In this document: piece after piece, positions 5,911 through 40,362 of the stretch | Position numbering within the stretch: position 1 is the stretch's first letter | Layout: each line of letters starts with the position of its first letter | Virus record (IMG/VR): IMGVR_UViG_3300024999_000107 | Span: 1 to 61,805 of that record | Strand: one strand, 5' to 3' | DNA: 61,805 nucleotides | Source: a virus | Notes under the pieces: generated by a model | What the model saw: only the letters and a program-made list of their open reading frames with translations | Databases searched by the model: none | Told to the model about the DNA's origin: nothing | Program-made: the position numbers and the translations under genes

Positions 5911-6297
5911 ATGAAACAGGTAATTACTATAGAATAATTAGAAGAATTAACACATGAACAAAAAGATAGTTTAAGAGAATGGTGGAATCCTGAGATTCAC
6001 ACATTCTTTGTAGTAAATAATACTATTTATCCTTGTGAAGATGGAAAATGTTTTGGCAAAAATGAAGTGGCAAACGGAGGATGTATTTTTAAGAAGGATA
6101 AATGTTTACCATTATTAAATATAGGGCAGATGATTGAGATATTGTCTTCTTGTAATATTGACATAATGAGTAATTATTATAATGAATTTGAGTGGACGAT
6201 AACTTTTTATAAAAAGGAACATTATATATTTAGAAATATAGAATTGTGTAATTCCTTATGGGAAGGTGTAAAAATTGTTTTGAGTAATAAAGTATAA
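5911..6297 (+). pseudogene. Hypothetical phage gene with TAA at codon 9
   Basis: ATG 5911 follows AAGGAGAG. The frame reads MKQVITIE, then TAA (5935-5937), then LEELTHEQKDSLREWW and on to 6297 without further stops. The restored 128-residue product has the look of a common phage protein beginning ITIEQLEELT, so the stop probably replaced a Gln CAA codon. The rest includes two Cys near residue 60. Either inactive or expressed by readthrough. Confidence 0.6.
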
Positions 6298-6314
6298 AGG
6301 AGATGATTAACAAA

Positions 6315-6476
6315 ATGTTCTATGCAGAAAATTATAAAATAGGTAAACAATTTAAGAATAAATTCACTAATTAAATATGGGAAGTTATAAGATTTGATGA
6401 AATGTTGCTGTTTGCAAAACAAGGATGTAGAGATTTATCTTATTCATTAAATGATGATTATTTTGAGGAATTATAA
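6315..6476 (+). pseudogene. Small hypothetical gene with TAA at codon 20
   Basis: ATG 6315 lies behind AAGGAGATG. The frame gives KFKNKFTN, then TAA (6372-6374), then IWEVIRFDEMLLFAKQG and on to 6476. Gln (CAA) would suit the stop position. Both halves read as one small, mixed alpha/beta protein, so I treat it as a nonsense-mutated gene. No family recognised. Confidence 0.5.
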
Positions 6477-6491
6477 AGGAGGAAAACAACA

Positions 6492-6734
6492 ATGATCGAA
6501 CAATACCCAAATGGAGCCAGAGTAATAACTTTAGGTGAAAATACGACTCAAATTAGTCAAATTGTACATAAAGACAGTCCAGAATCTTTAGGAATATGCT
6601 TTTGTAATAGTTTTACTGAAAATAATAAACCAGATGGCAATGTTGTAATTATTAATATCATCAATATTCAAGGTGTAATCAGCTACATCAAAGCATTGAC
6701 AGATATGTTAGCAACATGGGAAATTGAAGGTTAG
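6492..6734 (+). CDS. Hypothetical 80-aa protein
   Basis: ATG behind AAAGGAGG. Beta-rich N-terminal part followed by the helix VISYIKALTDMLATWE at the C-terminus. The gene ends 12 bases before the IS607-type element, whose insertion did not cut it. No family recognised. Confidence 0.7.
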   Translation: MIEQYPNGARVITLGENTTQISQIVHKDSPESLGICFCNSFTENNKPDGNVVIINIINIQGVISYIKALTDMLATWEIEG

Positions 6735-6775
6735 CAACTGTTAACTAAAAGTTATAAAAAGTTATAAATTTACCA

Positions 6776-6804
6776 TTTACATTATAATTATTGTATGTTA
6801 TAAT
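6776..6804 (+). promoter_or_regulatory. Promoter of tnpA
   Basis: TTTACA (6776-6781), 17-base spacer, TATAAT (6799-6804) preceded by TG one base upstream, an extended -10 of the vegetative sigma type. It lies between the left-end repeat and tnpA, so TnpA binding at the end could repress it. Confidence 0.65.
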
Positions 6805-6826
6805 CTATATATGAGGTGAAAAACAT

Positions 6827-7486
6827 ATGAAATATTATAGCATACATGAATTTTCAAAGTTAATATCTAGAACTCCACAAACTCTTAGGAATTGGGATAA
6901 AAATGGAAAACTAACTCCCAATCATACTGGAGCTAATGGTTATAGGTATTACTCGCACCAACAATTAAAAGAAGTTCTTAACATTAAAGATGACTCAGAA
7001 AAAAGTAGAATAGTAATCGGATATTGTAGAGTTTCTTCTAATAAGCAAAAAGATGACTTGCAAAGACAAGTTGATAATTTGTCAAAGTATTTGGAATCTT
7101 TAAACAAACCATATGAGATAATCACTGATATTGGTAGTGGAATTAATTATAAGAAAAAGGGACTCAGGGATTTATTGAAGAAAATCAATAATAAAGAAGT
7201 AGACAAAATAATTATTCTTTGTAAAGATAGACTTCTTAGATTTGGTTTTGAATTAATAGAATATATGGCTAATCTTAATGGTTGTGAAATAGAGATATTA
7301 GATAGCACTGAGAAAACACAACAAGAAGAATTGGTGGAAGATTTAATACAAATTATCACTGTTTTTAGTTGTAGACTTCAAGGTAAACGAGCTAATAGAA
7401 CTAGAAAAATGATTGATGATTTAATCAAGGAAGGAGATGAGGAAATTGATCAAGGGAATCAAAGTGATGCTTGTACCGAACAATAA
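6827..7486 (+). CDS. tnpA: IS607 transposase TnpA, serine recombinase
   Basis: Residues 1-50 form a MerR-like helix-turn-helix (YSIHEFSKLI, TLRNWDKNGKL). Residues 62-200 are a small serine resolvase domain with IGYCRVSSNKQKDDLQRQ, where Ser70 is the predicted nucleophile. Length 219 aa is normal for IS607 TnpA. It recombines a circular intermediate into a short target without target duplication. ATG follows GAGGTG. Its end overlaps tnpB by about 40 bases. Confidence 0.9.
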   Translation: MKYYSIHEFSKLISRTPQTLRNWDKNGKLTPNHTGANGYRYYSHQQLKEVLNIKDDSEKSRIVIGYCRVSSNKQKDDLQRQVDNLSKYLESLNKPYEIITDIGSGINYKKKGLRDLLKKINNKEVDKIIILCKDRLLRFGFELIEYMANLNGCEIEILDSTEKTQQEELVEDLIQIITVFSCRLQGKRANRTRKMIDDLIKEGDEEIDQGNQSDACTEQ

Positions 7487-8627
7487 GCAAAATACTTTAA
7501 TGTTTCAAAATGCTGGAACCGCAAGGTGGGCATATAACTGGGCATTGGGTAGAGAAAAAGAGAATTATGCAGATGGCGGTAAATTTATTTCAGATAATGA
7601 TTTAAGAAAAGAATTAACTCAACTAAAGAAAGAAGAAAAATTTAGTTGGTTGAATAGTGTTTCTAATAATGTACCAAAACAAGCAATTAAAGATGCTTGT
7701 ACTGCTTATCAACGATTCTTTAAAGGGCAAGCTAAGTTTCCTAAATTCAAGACTCGAAAAAAATCTCCTCCTAAATTTTATCAAGACAATATTAAAATTC
7801 AATTCACATCAACTCATGTTAAATTTGAAGGATTTGCTAAAAGTACAAAGAAAAATAAACAGCAATTAAACTGGGTAAGATTAGCTGAACATGATAGAAT
7901 TCCTTTTGGTAAAGATGTTAAGTATATCAATCCAAGAATCTCACATGATGGTTTAAATTGGTGGATTAGCGTTGGAATAGAATATCCAGATAGTCTTGAA
8001 ACACCATTAAATGAAGGAATCGGGATTGATGTAGGCATTAAAGATTTAGCAATTTGTTCAGATAAAGTTGCTTATGGTAATATTAATAAAACCAAAAAGA
8101 TGAAAAGATTAGAGAAGCAAAAGAAACGTCTTCAAAGACAAGTATCTAGAAGATATGAAGCGAATCGTGATGGTTTGAAATATATTAAAACTAAGAACAT
8201 TATTAAACTGGAACATAAAATTAAATCAGTTCAACACGAACTTAATGGGGTAAGAGATAATTATCTCCAACAAACGACTACTGAGATCGTGAAAACCAAA
8301 CCATCTTTTGTATCGTTAGAGGATTTAAATATTTCTGGAATGATGAAGAATTGCCATTTATCTAAAGCAATTCAACAACAAAGCCTGTATGAGTTTGGAA
8401 GACAGATTAAATACAAAGCAGCATGGAATCATATTGAAGTTAGAATTGTAGATAGATGGTATCCTTCAAGCAAAACATGTCATGATTGCGGTAAAGTTAA
8501 CAAGTTATTAAATTTAAACGACAGAGAATGGGTTTGTACTGGCTGTGGAAGTATTTTAGACAGGGATTATAATGCTTCATTGAATCTAAGAGATACAGAT
8601 AAATACAAGATATTTAAAGTAGCATAA
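7446..8627 (+). CDS. tnpB: TnpB, RuvC-like RNA-guided nuclease
   Basis: The RuvC residues are all present: Asp in GIGIDVGIKDLAI, Glu in VSLEDLNISGM, and Asp in ILDRDYNASLNL. A CHDCG/CTGCG zinc ribbon sits between the last two. About 390 aa is normal length. TnpB uses a guide RNA from the element's right end to cut the donor site after excision and so keep the element. TTG 7446 is 9 bases after AAGGAAGGAG; ATG 7437 lies too close to that site. The gene appears intact and may be active. Confidence 0.88.
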   Translation: MIKGIKVMLVPNNKQNTLMFQNAGTARWAYNWALGREKENYADGGKFISDNDLRKELTQLKKEEKFSWLNSVSNNVPKQAIKDACTAYQRFFKGQAKFPKFKTRKKSPPKFYQDNIKIQFTSTHVKFEGFAKSTKKNKQQLNWVRLAEHDRIPFGKDVKYINPRISHDGLNWWISVGIEYPDSLETPLNEGIGIDVGIKDLAICSDKVAYGNINKTKKMKRLEKQKKRLQRQVSRRYEANRDGLKYIKTKNIIKLEHKIKSVQHELNGVRDNYLQQTTTEIVKTKPSFVSLEDLNISGMMKNCHLSKAIQQQSLYEFGRQIKYKAAWNHIEVRIVDRWYPSSKTCHDCGKVNKLLNLNDREWVCTGCGSILDRDYNASLNLRDTDKYKIFKVA

Positions 8628-8844: not shown

Positions 8845-9027
8845 ATGACAGACATAAACAAAATTTATCAATCTAAAGGCTATCAAAATCGTAAGGAATT
8901 TATAGAAAGTTTAGTTGAAGATGTTGATGTTCCTTTGAAAAAAGCATTGGATATTTTAGATAATAAATATTTTGATGAATTAGTTTGGTTATTGAGTTAT
9001 GAGATTGATGAAAAGAGAGGTGAATAA
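8845..9027 (+). CDS. Hypothetical 60-aa protein
   Basis: ATG 8 bases after TTGGAGGAG. All-helical, acidic, with a SLVEDVDVPLKKALDIL segment. The next gene starts 5 bases after its stop and uses a ribosome site inside its last codons. No family recognised. Confidence 0.65.
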   Translation: MTDINKIYQSKGYQNRKEFIESLVEDVDVPLKKALDILDNKYFDELVWLLSYEIDEKRGE

Positions 9028-9031
9028 ATAT

Positions 9032-9541
9032 TTGAGTTACATATATGACGAGAAAAATATTAAATCAAAAGAAGACGCAATTATTGCATTGGAGGAAATT
9101 AGAGCGTATCAAAGTCTTGAAGGATTACCTTTTGATTTTGGTGATGGATTAATTCAAAACGATTTATCTTATGGTACTGAACACGTTTATTGGAAAATGG
9201 ATGCTCAAGTTTTAGAAGATATAATTGAAGATTGGGAAAAAGATATTGAATGGGCAAACTGGTCGGAAACTCAATCAAAAAAGAAAAAACATAAGAATAA
9301 AAGATTAAATAAACACCTCAGAAAAATAATTGGTAAAAGAAAGTTAATTAATTTATTTAAAGCTTCATGGTGGATAGTATATTACAATGAAAAAGAAAAC
9401 AGATATATTCGATGTTATTATAGTGGTAGGAAAGGTTTTGCAAAATGGTGTTCTGATAGAGCTGTAAGGAATAGAAATGATTTTTCGTTAATAGGAGCTG
9501 GTTATAGGAAATGTTTTAATTACTGGAATATTGTGTTTTAG
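9032..9541 (+). CDS. Hypothetical 169-aa protein with basic middle
   Basis: TTG 9032 stands 8 bases after AGAGGTGA; an earlier in-frame ATG has no site. The N-terminal half is acidic and ends in EDIIEDWEKDIEWANW. A run of Lys/Arg follows (residues about 88-118). The C-terminal part (SWWIVYYNEKENRY and RCYYSGRKGFAKW) is aromatic and beta-like. Could bind nucleic acid; no family recognised. Confidence 0.65.
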   Translation: MSYIYDEKNIKSKEDAIIALEEIRAYQSLEGLPFDFGDGLIQNDLSYGTEHVYWKMDAQVLEDIIEDWEKDIEWANWSETQSKKKKHKNKRLNKHLRKIIGKRKLINLFKASWWIVYYNEKENRYIRCYYSGRKGFAKWCSDRAVRNRNDFSLIGAGYRKCFNYWNIVF

Positions 9542-32644: not shown

Positions 32645-33001
32645 ATGGATTTAAGAATGTATATATTAGTCAATGAAGATATAAAGATTAATAAAGGAAA
32701 ATTGGCTGGTCAAGTAGGTCATGCGGTAGCAGTATATTTCTATAATACAATGGATGATAAAAATAATCTATACGATTCAACTATTGAATTATATATGACG
32801 AATTATCAAAAGAAAATTATTTTGTATGCTCCGCAATCTAAATTAGAGGAATTAGAAGAGAATAAATATATTACAATTAGAGATAGAGGATGGACAGATT
32901 TAGAACCTAATACATTAACTTGTGTTAATATGGGCATTATTGATTATGATGATTTTCCAAAAGAGTTAAATTGGTTAAAGAATTTAAAATTATGCAGATA
33001 A
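32645..33001 (+). CDS. PTH2-family peptidyl-tRNA hydrolase
   Basis: The start RMYILVNEDIKINKGKLAGQ and QVGHAVAVYFYN carries the PTH2 signature (V.ND.KM.KGK.AAQ.GHA). KKIILYAPQSKLEEL and DRGWTDLEPNTLTCVNMGI match the later PTH2 strands, including the TVLGIGP-like end. 118 aa is the normal length. PTH2 frees tRNA stuck to peptides; phage copies may rescue translation during takeover. ATG behind TAGGAG. Confidence 0.85.
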   Translation: MDLRMYILVNEDIKINKGKLAGQVGHAVAVYFYNTMDDKNNLYDSTIELYMTNYQKKIILYAPQSKLEELEENKYITIRDRGWTDLEPNTLTCVNMGIIDYDDFPKELNWLKNLKLCR

Positions 33002-33827: not shown

Positions 33828-34409
33828 ATGATCGAATCAATACTCCTCTCATTCTTAATCTCTAAATCTAAAATCCATATAGAATTAGGGAAATTAAAAT
33901 TCCAAAAAGAATCATACAAACTGACTCCTATATTCAAACATTGGAGTATTTACCCCATGATTATTATGTCAATCTTCTATATCTATTTAGAATACTCAAC
34001 ATGGAACAATGATTACTCCTTGCTACAATACTCTAATATCTTCAGAATGGCATTTCTAAGCTCTTTTCTAGTCTTAGCAATACATTACAACCAAACAATG
34101 AAATTACTTCAAGGAATCATATTTATGTCGATTGGAACAGTTCTGAATAATATTGCTATCAAAGTAAATTCAAATCATATGCCGATATTCCCTTCCATTA
34201 CATTTTCTACTGGAGTTACAAATCCAGATAAATTCCTTGATTCATCAATGTATGGAGATTTTCATGTCATAGGGGATTATACAACAAAATTAATACCACT
34301 TTGCGATTTTATGGACAATGGAATAAGTACGTATAGTATCGGAGATATATTTATATTTTCTTTTGCATTTATTCTAATTTATGGTTCTGTTAAAGCATCT
34401 AATATTTAA
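33828..34409 (+). CDS. DUF5317-like multi-pass membrane protein (193 aa)
   Basis: ATG behind GAGGTGAT. Hydrophobic helices at residues about 40-60, 73-95, 100-115 and 170-188. SNHMPIFPS followed by a His-rich loop (YGDFHVIGDYTTKLIPLCD) and STYSIGDIFIFSFAFILI match DUF5317, a family of unknown function. It directly precedes the agr-like genes and may belong to the signalling unit. Confidence 0.65.
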   Translation: MIESILLSFLISKSKIHIELGKLKFQKESYKLTPIFKHWSIYPMIIMSIFYIYLEYSTWNNDYSLLQYSNIFRMAFLSSFLVLAIHYNQTMKLLQGIIFMSIGTVLNNIAIKVNSNHMPIFPSITFSTGVTNPDKFLDSSMYGDFHVIGDYTTKLIPLCDFMDNGISTYSIGDIFIFSFAFILIYGSVKASNI

Positions 34410-34438
34410 CAAAAATAAAAATAATTTATAGCATGGAC

Positions 34439-34467
34439 TTGTAAACCACTTGACTTTCTGTTATAAT
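34439..34467 (+). promoter_or_regulatory. Promoter of the receptor-agrD operon
   Basis: TTGTAA (34439-34444), 17 bases, TATAAT (34462-34467) with TG one base upstream. Lies 38 bases before the receptor gene. Confidence 0.65.
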
Positions 34468-34504
34468 TATCTAAAGATTATAAATAAAAGATAGAGAAAG
34501 AGAG

Positions 34505-35335
34505 ATGGGAATATTTATGCAAGGAATCACAAATATGTTCTTTAACTTGATTTTAGTAACTATACCGGAGCAATTCTTCTTAGTGGTTATGACATTAATA
34601 TTTCTAAAGAAATTTGGAATTTTAGATGTATTGATGTGGAAACAAAACATTAAGTGGATATTAATCCCAGTAATACCAATATCAATTATTGAGGATATAA
34701 ATACTTTTATAATTACAAATAATTTATTTAGTCAGATATTAACCATTCTAAATCTAGTGTTTTTTTACATATTAATGGTATATGTAGCAAAAAAGAATAG
34801 TGACAACTTCAATATGAGAGATTACAAAAAAATATTCGCAGGTTTAGCTATAAGTCTTTTAATATTAGGAGTTTTAGAATCTGTAACTGCTCCAATAATG
34901 TTATTATTATTGAATAAACCTTTAACATATATTAATGATAATGCGATTTGGAACTTTGTCGGAAGTTTTCCTTCAAGAACATTTGAATTTTTAATACTTA
35001 CATTTTTTATTATTAAAAACAATAATGCTGTAAAAATTCAAATGTTTGATTCAATATCTAGACACAATTCACTACTTGTTCCTATTACAACTTTCGTAGT
35101 TTTATCCAATATATTTGCAGTTTATCTTATAAAATTAGTTGGAGGAGATAAAATCCTAGACAAAGTTTCAACATTGGGGCAAGTAATTATATCAATGAGT
35201 ATTTTAGTTGTTCCTGCACTCGTATTATATCTAATATTAATGATAATAAACTTTTTCTTAGTTCGAGAAAAACAAGCCCATAAAGTTTACGAAAATCTTG
35301 CAACGCAAGATAAGGTAGTAGACTTTGATATATAA
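34505..35335 (+). CDS. AgrC-like membrane receptor without a kinase domain
   Basis: 276 aa, almost entirely hydrophobic, with about seven transmembrane stretches (LVTIPEQFFLVVMTLIFL, WILIPVIPISIIEDI, FAGLAISLLILGVLESV, LILMIINFFLV). The FNLILVTIPEQFFLV start is like the sensor half of AgrC-type receptors found next to agrBD in Bacilli and Clostridia. Only about 25 polar residues follow the last helix: no His, N or G boxes. So it can sense but not phosphorylate. It might hold or release a partner, possibly the HTH-MazF protein. Confidence 0.7.
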   Translation: MGIFMQGITNMFFNLILVTIPEQFFLVVMTLIFLKKFGILDVLMWKQNIKWILIPVIPISIIEDINTFIITNNLFSQILTILNLVFFYILMVYVAKKNSDNFNMRDYKKIFAGLAISLLILGVLESVTAPIMLLLLNKPLTYINDNAIWNFVGSFPSRTFEFLILTFFIIKNNNAVKIQMFDSISRHNSLLVPITTFVVLSNIFAVYLIKLVGGDKILDKVSTLGQVIISMSILVVPALVLYLILMIINFFLVREKQAHKVYENLATQDKVVDFDI

Positions 35336-35368
35336 TTAATTTTATATGGGTGAGAGGAGGTGAATACA

Positions 35369-35500
35369 ATGAAAGTAAAAATGTATACGGTTGTTGCTAG
35401 TCTATTGGGTTTGGTAGCAATGGGCCTTGTTCAAACTGCTTGTCGTTTCTGGTTTTTTCAACCAGAAGAAGATCAAACTCCAAAGTGCTTAAGTAAATAA
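35369..35500 (+). CDS. agrD: AgrD-like cyclic peptide signal precursor (43 aa)
   Basis: ATG behind GAGAGGAGGTG. Layout is that of AgrD: an amphipathic leader (KVKMYTVVASLLGLVAMGLV), a core around Cys25 (TACRFWFFQ), and a charged tail with QPEEDQTPKCL. AgrB would cut after the core and join Cys25 to the new C-terminus as a thiolactone, so CRFWF or CRFWFF is the likely ring. A second Cys at position 40 in the tail is unusual. It is followed by a GTAGGGA/TCCCTAC hairpin. Confidence 0.85.
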   Translation: MKVKMYTVVASLLGLVAMGLVQTACRFWFFQPEEDQTPKCLSK

Positions 35501-35510
35501 GTAAACATAA

Positions 35511-35538
35511 GTAGGGAGGATTTTATAGTCTTCCCTAC
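35511..35538 (+). terminator. Hairpin after agrD
   Basis: GTAGGGA (35511-35517) pairs with TCCCTAC (35532-35538). No strong T-run, so it may attenuate rather than end transcription, or protect the agrD message. Confidence 0.5.
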
Positions 35539-35579
35539 AACTATAAAAATAATTATTTTATAAATATAGTATAAGACTG

Positions 35580-35609
35580 TTGACATTTGAATACACTTTA
35601 GTATATAAT
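35580..35609 (+). promoter_or_regulatory. Strong promoter of the HTH-MazF/agrB operon
   Basis: TTGACA (35580-35585), 18 bases, TATAAT (35604-35609), both perfect. It lies 60 bases before the HTH-MazF gene, so agrB and this regulator are made separately from agrD. Confidence 0.75.
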
Positions 35610-35668
35610 TAGATAAATAAATTAATAAAATTAATTATCTAATTGCTAATAAAAAGGAGTGTATTGTT

Positions 35669-36463
35669 ATGTTAGACACATTGGTCAAAAAATTTAATAC
35701 AGAGGAAAATATTAAAAAGGATTTCAAAAAAGTAGCCAGTTATGTAATTAAAGCAAAAGGTAGCGAAAGATCAATCGGAGGTTTTGCTGGAGATTGTGGG
35801 GTTAGCGGGCAATATATGGAAAGTGTTATAAAAGGGAAAATAAATTGTTATCCCCAAATGCAGTTCCTAAAAGTTGTATCTGATAATTCCGAAGGCAGAG
35901 TTTCATTCAAGGATTTAACACTAGCTTGCGGTTATTCTAATTATTGTAATAATGACTTGGAACAAATTAAAAATATAAAAATTGAGAGAGGTGGAATTTA
36001 TTTTTGTAACTTTGGCGATAGTGGGATTGATAGTGAGATAACTGGTCATCGTCCAGTGTGTATAATTCAGAATTCTATAGGCAATGCACGAAGCAGTAAT
36101 ACCAAAGTTCTCACAATCACCAGTCGCAGTAAAGCAAAATTGCCGACGCATATAGAAATAAGTAGCAAGGAATATAAAGGCTTAACATCTGATTCTATTA
36201 TTTGTTGCGAAGTTGAAGACACTGTTAGTAAGAGAAGATTAATATCTGGATCTGGAGTAGTAGAAAAAATAGCACAGTGTTCTCCTGAATTACTACTTCG
36301 TATTTCTGTGGCAGTAGCCAAGGCAGATGGAATCATTGATTTAAATGTACCTGAAAAAATTGCCATTGAGGCTTTAATGAATTTGAATAGAGGAATAACT
36401 AAAACATATCAATTTGAAAATAATCGCAATCTAAATACAGCCAAACAATCAGTATTTGCTTAA
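35669..36463 (+). CDS. Helix-turn-helix protein fused to a MazF/PemK-like domain
   Basis: 264 aa. Residues 30-90 look Xre-like (SIGGFAGDCGVSGQYMESVI, ACGYSNY). Residues 107-192 match MazF/PemK: ERGGIYFCNF, GHRPVCIIQN with Arg128, LTITSRSKAKLPTHIEI with Thr151-Ser152, GLTSDSIICCEVEDTVSKRR. The two MazF active-site positions (Arg and Thr) are conserved. A 70-residue tail has IAQCSPELLLRISVAVAKAD, usual for MazF ends. It may repress DNA, cut RNA, or use the MazF fold to bind a peptide or protein. It sits between agrD and agrB, replacing a response regulator. Confidence 0.8.
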   Translation: MLDTLVKKFNTEENIKKDFKKVASYVIKAKGSERSIGGFAGDCGVSGQYMESVIKGKINCYPQMQFLKVVSDNSEGRVSFKDLTLACGYSNYCNNDLEQIKNIKIERGGIYFCNFGDSGIDSEITGHRPVCIIQNSIGNARSSNTKVLTITSRSKAKLPTHIEISSKEYKGLTSDSIICCEVEDTVSKRRLISGSGVVEKIAQCSPELLLRISVAVAKADGIIDLNVPEKIAIEALMNLNRGITKTYQFENNRNLNTAKQSVFA

Positions 36464-36477
36464 AGAAAGGAGTTTTA

Positions 36478-37101
36478 ATGATTTTACTTAATAATTTATC
36501 AAATCGTTTTGCAAAATACTTATCCACAATAGTACCAAACTCTAAATATCCTTCTATAAAAGATCAAATTGAAGTTTATGATTTTGCTATCAAGGGGGTT
36601 TTTGAAGAATTATCTACTATGATATTATTAATCTTATTTTCATTGGTTTTAGGTGTATTTACTCCTGTTATATTTATTGCATTAACTTTTATTTCATTAA
36701 GAAGTATAGCAGGAGGAATACACCTTTCAACGCATAGAAGATGCCAGATTATGTCTATAGTGATGTTTATTGGATCTGGATTGATTATGAAGTTGATATT
36801 AAGGTGTCTGTCTATTCAAAACATCTATTTTTTGTTGTTATTTTGTGTCTTAACGACGTTATATATGGTAGTTAGGTATATTCCTAGGGATTCAATAAAC
36901 AAACCGATTACAGATCCTTTAGAAAGATTAAAATTCAAAAGATTGTCATTGTATTATATTATAATATGGACAATTATAATGACAATCTTTCTCCACCTTA
37001 ATTTAAAAATAATTGTCATTGCTAGTTGTTTTGGATTATTGTTAGAATTATTTAATTGTAGTAAAATGGGACAGTTTATTTCCTTTATAAGTGATTCATA
37101 A
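36478..37101 (+). CDS. agrB: AgrB-like peptide-processing membrane protease
   Basis: ATG behind AAAGGAG. LRSIAGGIHLSTHRRCQIMS has His82 and Cys89, with the same 7-residue spacing as the His-Cys catalytic pair of staphylococcal AgrB. RYIPRDSINKPI matches the PxDxxNKPI motif. Four to six transmembrane helices follow. 207 aa is normal. AgrB trims the AgrD tail and makes the thiolactone. It lies 14 bases after the HTH-MazF stop in the same operon. Intact. Confidence 0.92.
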   Translation: MILLNNLSNRFAKYLSTIVPNSKYPSIKDQIEVYDFAIKGVFEELSTMILLILFSLVLGVFTPVIFIALTFISLRSIAGGIHLSTHRRCQIMSIVMFIGSGLIMKLILRCLSIQNIYFLLLFCVLTTLYMVVRYIPRDSINKPITDPLERLKFKRLSLYYIIIWTIIMTIFLHLNLKIIVIASCFGLLLELFNCSKMGQFISFISDS

Positions 37102-37847: not shown

Positions 37848-37877
37848 TTGACATTATTAGGGAAGTCATGATATATT
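37848..37877 (+). promoter_or_regulatory. Promoter of the YopQ/MrpR-like operon
   Basis: TTGACA (37848-37853), 18 bases, TATATT (37872-37877) with TG one base upstream. Just after the start site lies the dyad TGTCA-N6-TGACA (37892-37907), a likely operator for self-control. Confidence 0.65.
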
Positions 37878-37929
37878 ATATTATATAAGTGTGTCATTAC
37901 TGTGACAATAATGCGAAGGAGTGATATTT

Positions 37930-39315
37930 ATGCTAAAAGAAAAATCGGTTGAATTGATTCGTGGGCTTAATGTATTAATTGAAGATTATGCATCGAACGA
38001 CAAGGTAAGAAAAATAATTGTTGAAGAGTTTGACAAAAGAAATATGAAAGGTAGTTTAGCAGTTGGTATTCTAAATAAAAATAGAGAGTTATCCACGTTA
38101 GATATTGATGAAAGTAAAGATTTAATCATATTGTTTGTTTTTACTATGAGCATGTATAACGCACTAATGTTTAAGGAATCAGATGATAAAGAACCATTGG
38201 GGAAAATTGAAGAAATATTAATGATTAATCCTAAAAATTATTTCAATGAAATTGAGATTGAAAACTTAAATGATTATAAATTTGAAAAGAAAGTAGATAA
38301 AAAAGACGAAGTTATTGTTTTCCCTAAAATGAATAGAATTGCTACTGGATTTTATTCTGGATATATATCAGGAAAACAATTCGCCGAATTAGATGCTGGA
38401 AATGAACTCATCTATAATTTTAAAACGCAACGTGATCCACTTATTGATGTGTATGGAATGAAGCGAATACACTTAAACAAAACAAATGCAAAAGAAATTA
38501 GAGATGGTGTTCTTTCAGGAGATCAATTTCCAACTACTATTGTGGTAAATGTTCTTAAAGATGGTACTGATGAATTAGATTATGATGAAAAAACAGGTGA
38601 TTTATTTATTATTTCAGGAACTAAAAATCTAGTTGACGGATTTCATCGGAAGGTCGGAAATAGCTTGGCCTTCGCCATTAACCAAGATTTAGAGTTCAAC
38701 TGGTTATTAGTTGTAACAAATTACAGTGAAATTAGAGCGCAAAAATATATGGTAGAAATTAATAAACAACAAAAAATGAAGCAAGAGCATATTAAAAATA
38801 TGGATACTGCTAGTCTTGGAAATGTAGTCGTAGATGCAATTAAAGATATTGATACCTCTGAATTTGCAGATCAAATAAAGGATAACGATAAAGAAATTGG
38901 ACATTTTGAACTTGAACATTTCGGCATGGCTAAGAAGTCCACATTGGCATTAGCTATTGAAGAGTGTTATGGAGATAAATTAACTAATAAGCTTCAAGTA
39001 AGACCTATTGCAAAGCATATAGCAAATGTTATGGATTATATTATAGGACTGCATGTAGAAGAGTTTATGGAACATCCTGAAGCTACTCAGAAGGTAAGTT
39101 ATATCAATCATAAGAATATGTTCGCAGGATATATCGCTTTGTCTGAGCGATTATATGGTGTGAAAAAGTGGGAAGATATTCTTGAAGAAATTTTAAATAA
39201 GATAGATTTCAGTATGGAAAATACATTCTGGGATGATATTAAATTGAACAAAGATTCAGATATGAAAAAGTCTACACGGACAAATTTATATAAATTCTTT
39301 CAGAAATTAATTTAA
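37930..39315 (+). CDS. YopQ-like protein with DGQHR/ParB-type fold
   Basis: ATG 37930 behind GAAGGAG, 461 aa. The middle has IHLNKTNAKEIRDGVLSGDQ, FIISGTKNLVDGFHRKVGNS and MVEINKQQKMKQEHI. VDGFHR plus NKQQ is the DGQHR/DndB-like ParB-fold pattern. Size and position, directly before a recombinase-like gene of about 340 aa, match SPbeta yopQ (about 460 aa) before yopR. Proposed role: partner in lysogeny control. The SPbeta link rests on order and size from memory. Confidence 0.65.
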   Translation: MLKEKSVELIRGLNVLIEDYASNDKVRKIIVEEFDKRNMKGSLAVGILNKNRELSTLDIDESKDLIILFVFTMSMYNALMFKESDDKEPLGKIEEILMINPKNYFNEIEIENLNDYKFEKKVDKKDEVIVFPKMNRIATGFYSGYISGKQFAELDAGNELIYNFKTQRDPLIDVYGMKRIHLNKTNAKEIRDGVLSGDQFPTTIVVNVLKDGTDELDYDEKTGDLFIISGTKNLVDGFHRKVGNSLAFAINQDLEFNWLLVVTNYSEIRAQKYMVEINKQQKMKQEHIKNMDTASLGNVVVDAIKDIDTSEFADQIKDNDKEIGHFELEHFGMAKKSTLALAIEECYGDKLTNKLQVRPIAKHIANVMDYIIGLHVEEFMEHPEATQKVSYINHKNMFAGYIALSERLYGVKKWEDILEEILNKIDFSMENTFWDDIKLNKDSDMKKSTRTNLYKFFQKLI

Positions 39316-39330
39316 AGGAGATGCTTTAAA

Positions 39331-40362
39331 ATGATTGAAATTGCAAATGATGAATTACAAAATGAAGAAAAAGTGGAATTTAAAGTTGATCCTGAAGTTA
39401 AGGAAGAATTTTTAGAAAAACAATTAAAATCTACTAGAAGTTATTATCGTTATATTTTAAAACTTGCAGATGATTTTGAAGTAAAACTTGGTAAACCTAT
39501 TTACAACTTTAATACAGAAGAGAGAGACGAATTATTAATTGTGCAATATAAAAACAAAAACAAGTTCGCTTTTCAAACTGTTTTATCTCCATTAAAAACT
39601 TATGTAGATTTTTGCATTTCACCTAAGAATCTAGTACGACACAATGAAAACAGGTTTTCTAGCATTTTAACATCGAACTATAAATTTTATATTAATTCTC
39701 AAGCAAAAGAAAATTCCTATATTCCTCTATCAGAGTGTCGAGAATTTCAATCTAAATTAGCAAATTATCAAGATAGGGCAATTCTTGAATTACCAAGTCT
39801 AGGGGTTAGAGGCCGTACTGAAAAAGGCAATACTCTTGAAGAATTAGTAAACCTAAAAGAAGACGATATTAAATGGGAAAAGAAAAGATTATATCTTACC
39901 AAAAATAATGGCGAATTGAGGTGGATTGAAGTTGATGACTATACTTTAGATTTACTCAAAAAAACCATTAATCAAGATTTTTATATTTCAAATAATGGAT
40001 TAAAAACAAAACCCAATGAAAATGGGGTATACGAAAGTACAGATAAGGGAAGAATGATTAATAAAACTGAATATGTATTTAGAGTCCCAGGGAGCAACAA
40101 ACATGGCAAGGTCGATTATCAATTTTTTGCTAGTAGAATTCAACGGATGCAAAAATGGTTAGGAAAACCTTATATTAGTGTAAGTAATTTATACTTCTCT
40201 GCTATTATTGAATATGCTAAAAAGTTGAAAAAAGAGAAAGGCGAATTGACTAGAGAAGATTATCTTTCAATTAATGAGAGATTTGAATTTGGTGAAACTA
40301 AGGAGAAATATGTTTTTAAAACTAGAGAACTTATTGAATCGTATCTGAATGATGAGAGGTAA
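39331..40362 (+). CDS. Tyrosine-recombinase-fold protein, MrpR/YopR-like master repressor candidate
   Basis: 343 aa. Residues 20-120 resemble a core-binding SAM-like domain (RSYYRYILKLADDFEVKL, VLSPLKTYVDFCI). The second half follows the integrase fold: LPSLGVRGRTEKGNTLEEL and LVNLKEDDIKWEKKRLYL. But there is no HxxR box and no Tyr nucleophile region; ISVSNLYFSAIIEYAKKL stands where they should be. SPbeta MrpR (YopR) is such a catalytically dead recombinase acting as master repressor. This is the best lysogeny-repressor candidate in the window. Confidence 0.7.
   Translation: MIEIANDELQNEEKVEFKVDPEVKEEFLEKQLKSTRSYYRYILKLADDFEVKLGKPIYNFNTEERDELLIVQYKNKNKFAFQTVLSPLKTYVDFCISPKNLVRHNENRFSSILTSNYKFYINSQAKENSYIPLSECREFQSKLANYQDRAILELPSLGVRGRTEKGNTLEELVNLKEDDIKWEKKRLYLTKNNGELRWIEVDDYTLDLLKKTINQDFYISNNGLKTKPNENGVYESTDKGRMINKTEYVFRVPGSNKHGKVDYQFFASRIQRMQKWLGKPYISVSNLYFSAIIEYAKKLKKEKGELTREDYLSINERFEFGETKEKYVFKTRELIESYLNDER

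Follow-up and report, generated by a model that had tools for sequence, protein, structure and literature searches.

Among the peptide switches that phages encode to choose between lysis and lysogeny, arbitrium has been studied most thoroughly. It combines a cytosolic RRNPP receptor with a linear peptide, and in phages of the SPbeta group its genes precede a conserved gene series, the order being aimR(yopK)-aimP(yopL)-yopM-N-O-P-Q-R in SPBc2 and aimR-aimP-aimX-92 to 97 in phi3T. The yopR gene encodes the SPbeta master repressor, and yopMNOPQR have been renamed sroABCDEF (PMC10769878; PMC10516654). The arbitrium output in phi3T is host MazF, which is controlled by AimX, YosL and phi3T_93 (PMC10769878). 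A second kind of peptide signalling, agrBDCA of Staphylococcus and Clostridia, includes a histidine kinase and a LytTR regulator. Here, we describe a five-gene cassette at positions 33828-37101 of the virus record IMGVR_UViG_3300024999_000107, a phage contig of 61.8 kb (61,805 nt; hereafter, the window), which unites an agr-type signal-making pair, a kinase-less AgrC-type receptor and a MazF fusion protein directly upstream of phage repressor genes.

The cassette resembles arbitrium of SPbeta and phi3T in phage group, in its position directly 5' of the sro/yop repressor genes, in its peptide signal and in the presence of MazF in the circuit, with the difference that phi3T uses host MazF (PMC10769878) whereas the cassette phages encode a MazF fusion of their own. 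In contrast to arbitrium (aimR-aimP-aimX), it has no AimR, AimP or AimX and no yopP-type gene between the cassette and yopQ, and a membrane AgrC-type receptor and a predicted AgrB-made cyclic peptide take the place of the cytosolic receptor and linear peptide. With agrBDCA it shares AgrB and AgrD, both recognized by curated models, and a receptor homologous to the AgrC sensor; unlike agrBDCA, it contains neither a histidine kinase nor a LytTR regulator, its effector candidate is a helix-turn-helix (HTH)-like/MazF fusion, and Ser replaces Cys in the peptide ring in 16 of 19 cassettes. The agr3 locus of the C. difficile myovirus phiCDHM1 is likewise phage-borne and lacks agrA, but its AgrC has a GHKL domain, and the accessible part of its description mentions neither a MazF fusion nor SPbeta repressor genes (PMC3901668). 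Compared with MazEF, the MazF domain of the fusion is 37% identical to B. anthracis MazF and retains the catalytic Arg and Thr/Ser, but no MazE-like antitoxin was found (no MazE-type GYx[EQ]M segment occurs in the window or the scanned cassette loci), and the fusion adds an N-terminal helical domain and an N/Q-rich C-terminal tail. A literature search covering few subscription journals and no preprints turned up no published example of an agr cassette placed in the arbitrium/sro locus, of phage receptors of the AgrC type without a kinase or of a readout by an HTH-MazF protein. One review remarks that SPbeta-like phages carry agrB and agrC (PMC11945551); of the two references it gives, number 110 deals with cinnamaldehyde and AgrA and offers no support for such a precedent. 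The agr signal and the arbitrium position are of known kinds, and the receiving mechanism is possibly new.

Gene content and position of the cassette

The cassette genes, their cis elements and the yopQ-mrpR pair lie on the + strand. The cassette of the window consists, in order, of a DUF5317 membrane-type protein (33828-34409; PF17248, 3.3e-15), the receptor REC (34505-35335, 276 aa), agrD (35369-35500), the HTH-like/MazF fusion, here called XMAZ (35669-36463), and agrB (36478-37101), which encodes the membrane peptidase/cyclase. An earlier sequence-only reading had recognized an AgrD-like 43-mer with Cys25 and a QPEEDQ tail and an AgrB with His82 and Cys89, and both identifications stood when family models were searched. 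The 43-aa precursor starting at the ATG at 35369, with a predicted ring CRFWF, matches NCBIfam TIGR04223 (29.2 bits versus a cut-off of 19; 7.5e-7), and AgrB matches PF04647 (114 bits versus a cut-off of 23; 5.2e-33) and carries the motif R75-SIAGGIH82-LSTHRRC89, the catalytic motif being present in 18 of 18 AgrB proteins; the MazF part of XMAZ also matches its model. An alignment of 19 AgrD relatives displays a hydrophobic leader, a Cys/Ser ring start and a QP tail in the common layout [C/S]xxxx-x-Q[PS], with cores that differ at the ring ([C/S]xxxx) and a mostly retained QP...TPxC. The prevalence of Ser among relatives had been missed by the sequence-only reading, and these Ser-type peptides would be expected to form a lactone instead of a thiolactone. 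No AgrB homologue was found in isolate phages by tblastn.

The two genes 3' of the cassette match phrog_5732/DndB-like YopQ and MrpR, and their matches come from SPbeta-group phages of Bacillus, Geobacillus, Psychrobacillus, Staphylococcus and Mammaliicoccus. In the window, the yopQ (sroE) homologue, a conserved neighbour outside the cassette, occupies 37921-39315 (phrog_5732, 2.7e-57; SPBc2 yopQ, 3e-15) behind a promoter-like site at 37848-37877 (11/12 matches), and the mrpR (yopR/sroF) homologue occupies 39331-40362 (PF22822 MrpR_N_CB, 1.4e-12; Geobacillus E3, 1e-26; phi3T, 5e-10). Judged by this gene pair, the phage is SPbeta-like. Because yopQ-mrpR are preceded by aimR-aimP(-aimX) in SPBc2 and phi3T, the cassette stands in the arbitrium slot, and mrpR is presumed to belong to its target circuit. 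The sequence-only reading had rightly picked out phage agr genes, a kinase-less receptor, the lack of AgrA, an HTH-MazF candidate readout and an unusual layout; the SPbeta-like nature of the phage and the position directly 5' of yopQ-mrpR had escaped it. No match to AimR (NF038310) above the cut-off was found in the window record and 11 related phage records (12 in total), which reach 227 kb, although absence in fragments is not absolute; phmmer searches for AimR were also negative in 11 further loci, and an AimR candidate in G006 was rejected as an HTH-only match below the cut-off.

Conservation and block exchange among relatives

Beyond the window, this gene order recurs in 11 distinct contigs detected in scans with XMAZ, AgrB and the receptor. 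A scan with YopQ as bait, which does not select for the cassette, added 11 loci in 10 distinct contigs; the cassette is present in seven of these contigs, truncated in one where the contig ends, and absent from the other three. In total, 19 distinct phage contigs carry the cassette 5' of yopQ-mrpR, a recurrence of one gene set that is not due to chance, and this conservation of the layout marks a real system and not an isolated case. There is nevertheless some variation. DUF5317 is present in 17 of the 19 cassettes, being cut off by the contig end in L055 and missing from L016, and is an accessory member; agrB has shifted to a position 5' of DUF5317 in L025, L056, L061 and L066; and a second receptor follows in seven cassettes, with homing endonucleases in the gaps of some. 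In L002, a C-terminal remnant of a second receptor (8851-9147) lies between agrB and yopQ beside an HNH-type endonuclease gene, and it is a product of the decay of REC2.

Mantel tests on pairwise identities among 17-19 phages revealed that the cassette genes co-vary. The receptor, AgrD, AgrB and XMAZ were correlated with one another (rho 0.73-0.88, p 0.001), including REC-AgrD (0.80), REC-AgrB (0.88), REC-XMAZ (0.73) and XMAZ-AgrB (0.79), and yopQ and mrpR were correlated with each other (0.87). Between the two groups, REC-yopQ (0.08), XMAZ-yopQ (0.05), REC-mrpR (0.14) and AgrB-mrpR (0.10) were non-significant, and XMAZ-mrpR gave 0.20 (p 0.026). The relatives L016 and L053 illustrate this pattern: YopQ is 100% and MrpR 99% identical between them, versus 45% for the receptor, 57% for AgrD and 59% for XMAZ, and their DNA identity is 98.6% before the cassette, falls inside it and returns to about 94% from the 3' part of XMAZ. 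Since the cassette genes co-vary with one another and hardly with yopQ or mrpR, they have been exchanged as a block, which ties XMAZ to the signal genes and would fit a swappable signal-specificity module.

Two bacterial loci point to a wider theme. At L043 14351-16960 (G292:C68) and L075 1089-2675 (G414:C7), one or more kinase-less AgrC-like receptors and an AgrD-like peptide are accompanied by a convergent Cro/C1 HTH gene, with no adjacent agrB or kinase, and these loci support receptor-to-HTH signalling as a more general arrangement. The G292 locus also adjoins an actin-like (ALP) gene. Separately, the agr cassette is missing from the SPbeta-like relative L059, in which the same slot (6014-7208) is occupied by a C-terminally extended MazF and, after it, a TPR-like protein of 199 aa (by eye, RRNPP-like without HTH), perhaps another receptor-MazF pairing.

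The receptor, the MazF fusion and their cis elements

REC has no family match in domain and family searches and no useful match in the Protein Data Bank (PDB) in a fold search with its model, and tblastn found no match for it in isolate phages or in plasmids. It contains seven long helices and ends after the last transmembrane helix; an alternative start at 34517 (MQ...) would agree with most relatives. Comparison of 17 receptors with AgrC kinases by hhalign (probability 96%, E-value 4.6e-9, 234 columns within columns 13-267) identifies the receptor, at the level of profile homology, as an AgrC sensor domain that stops where the kinase would begin. In addition, a receptor profile searched against 398 genomes of one phylum matched full AgrC kinases over their N-terminal half, of which those in G143 and G109 adjoin agrB and agrD and that in G146 adjoins a LytTR regulator. 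Neither a GHKL kinase domain nor an AgrA-type LytTR domain (PF04397) was found in the 12 phage records, which bears out the earlier description of the receptor as kinase-less and of AgrA as absent. An AgrC-AgrA pair for the peptide, which had been named as the finding that would speak against a new circuit, was likewise not seen in these 12 phage records, to which the search was confined. Roughly half of the first receptors have a tail of the form YENLxxQD (YENLA.QD-type), and variants of this motif occur in others.

XMAZ is the only soluble product encoded in every cassette, and its gene lies between agrD and agrB or immediately 3' of agrD in 19 of 19. Its MazF domain (aa 106-217; PF02452, 4.6e-17) matches solved Bacillus and Staphylococcus MazF (profile, 4e-28; nearest folds 4hke/4mdx, TMt 0.90), and the catalytic residues are retained, with R128 in 18 and T/S151 in all 19 proteins. 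The N-terminal stretch of about 90 aa is all-helical, with five helices in an AlphaFold2 model; it has no Pfam match, its best PDB matches are to phage Cro (E-value 0.19, non-significant), and hhalign against an XRE set gave an E-value of 2e-4 and a probability of 45%, versus 0.08-0.58 for unrelated controls. Thus, of the HTH-MazF protein proposed from sequence between agrD and agrB, the MazF part and the position held, and the HTH part is Cro/C1-like at weak significance. Genome scans for XMAZ yielded nothing beyond a typical chromosomal mazF located after alr (L029). A stand-alone MazF is encoded 5' of the cassette in most relatives and not in the window. In these phages, an N/Q-rich stretch followed by [VI]x[YF]A(N/R), mostly VA[FY]A in XMAZ, forms the C-terminus of most stand-alone MazFs (L002 3389-3781, L005 5851-6237, L007 4231-4650 and others) and of almost every XMAZ protein; this tail, which is absent from Bacillus MazF among the matches listed, may be a shared degron or docking tail.

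Promoter-like sites noted in the sequence-only reading are present upstream of the receptor gene (34439-34467, 10/12) and of XMAZ (35580-35609, a 12/12 consensus, TTGACA-18-TATAAT); across the region such sites are in slight excess (43 versus 34 in shuffles), and the 12/12 site stands out. Directly 3' of agrD is an RNA hairpin (35511-35538; -18.5 kcal/mol, z -5.6), and a strong hairpin, likewise lacking a U-tract, occurs within about 75 nt 3' of agrD in 19 of 19 cassettes. We rejected the window hairpin as a standard terminator, as it has no U-tract and no terminator was called; the arrangement is reminiscent of the regulated aimP-aimX terminator of phi3T (PMC10769878). Near the XMAZ promoter are two operator-like pairs of inverted half-sites (35590-35665), AATACACT/AGTGTATT at 35590-35597 and 35658-35665 and AATTAGATAA/TTATCTAATT at 35607-35616 and 35635-35644, and half-sites flank this promoter in several relatives. 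Against shuffles their significance is weak to moderate in the window (0.02), L021 (0.005), L016 (0.01) and L020 (0.02), the others being non-significant.

Outside the cassette, a PTH2-type peptidyl-tRNA hydrolase (Pfam) is encoded just 5' of it (32645-33001), with a similar gene seen by eye in L002 (2346-2684) and L007 (2908-3432); a phage PTH2 and a nearby MazF may share a link to RNA damage or translation. An IS607-type element (6827-8627) encodes a serine recombinase-like protein and TnpB/OrfB (Cas12f-like TNB).

A proposed signalling route and competing explanations

Our data suggest a model, to which we give an even chance, whereby an AgrC-type receptor without a kinase governs a phage-encoded MazF effector in a peptide communication module for lysis-lysogeny that replaces arbitrium. 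By analogy with its family, AgrB would trim and cyclise AgrD to a small (thio)lactone, with the core CRFWF in the window, which would leave the cell. Because the receptor is an AgrC sensor homologue that is co-inherited with AgrD, it would bind this peptide in the membrane of lysogens or infected cells and, as there is neither a kinase nor AgrA, the signal would pass through its short cytosolic tail. The tail would probably contact XMAZ, the sole soluble cassette protein, and hold or release it, and XMAZ would then act as a repressor at its own promoter, perhaps also at receptor-agrD and yopQ-mrpR, and/or as an RNase. This action would tip the balance between lysis and lysogeny, like the MazF-centred arbitrium output in phi3T, and it seems unlikely that a phage MazF fusion would occur by coincidence in an alternative module at the arbitrium locus. 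The fullest form of the model is more tentative, and we lean somewhat against it: the AgrC-type receptor, lacking a kinase, would act directly on a MazF ribonuclease that binds DNA, so that agr signalling would proceed without phosphorylation and give phages an extracellular cyclic-peptide switch for lysis-lysogeny, one that arose at the arbitrium locus by independent evolution.

Several points weigh against this model. There is no direct sign of contact between the receptor and XMAZ: we rejected a candidate mimicry by the tail of the MazF-binding segment of MazE/AimX/YosL (column-shuffle p 0.21, though tyrosines align in the best register), and single tails gave no significant match to that segment. 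Six first receptors, those of L025, L056, L057, L060, L061 and L066, lack the YENL tail, and L057, L060 and L066 also have no second receptor bearing it. The Cro/C1-like assignment of the XMAZ N-terminus is weak, L061 carries His at the MazF Arg position, and the operator-like repeats are of mixed significance. The role in lysogeny is suggested by position and precedent, use of a host AgrC-AgrA pair or of host AgrA is possible, and the records are metagenomic and mostly fragments.

A different view is that the phage manipulates host agr: its peptide would act on host AgrC, the receptor, in effect a truncated AgrC, would dimerise with AgrC or absorb the peptide, and XMAZ would be a separate stress or abortive gene. 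The phiCDHM1 locus has agrDBC without agrA and, according to the accessible part of its description, may use host AgrA (PMC3901668). We consider this explanation unlikely for the cassette, as the inheritance of XMAZ follows that of the receptor (0.73) and AgrB (0.79), its gene keeps its place next to agrD throughout and the module is fixed beside the phage repressor genes instead of being scattered like a moron. It is just as improbable, in our estimate, that XMAZ is reached without direct receptor contact, through transcription alone, another phage protein (YopQ, for example) or docking of a host kinase on the tail. The short and variable tail motif, the presence of a hairpin and of a promoter for XMAZ itself in the agrD-XMAZ interval and the constant adjacency of YopQ are consistent with such a route, but YopQ does not follow the inheritance of the cassette (rho 0.05-0.08) and no other soluble cassette gene is present in all 19. 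A lactone-peptide bacteriocin or exclusion system unrelated to lysogeny, in which the receptor-like protein would confer immunity and MazF would be the toxin, would account for the missing kinase, the variable peptide cores and the stand-alone MazF close by in most relatives but is very improbable, given the AgrC sensor homology, the lack of any PADLOC match, the fixed position at the arbitrium/repressor locus and a block exchange apart from the repressor genes that suits a signal specificity group.

If signalling from the kinase-less receptor to XMAZ is borne out, phages would have taken up two peptide languages of unrelated kinds to make one decision, both converging on MazF, and an agr signal would be readable without a two-component system. 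The system supplies many natural specificity types, and pairs of the L016/L053 type, with the same repressor genes and different signal cassettes, would be useful for testing it.

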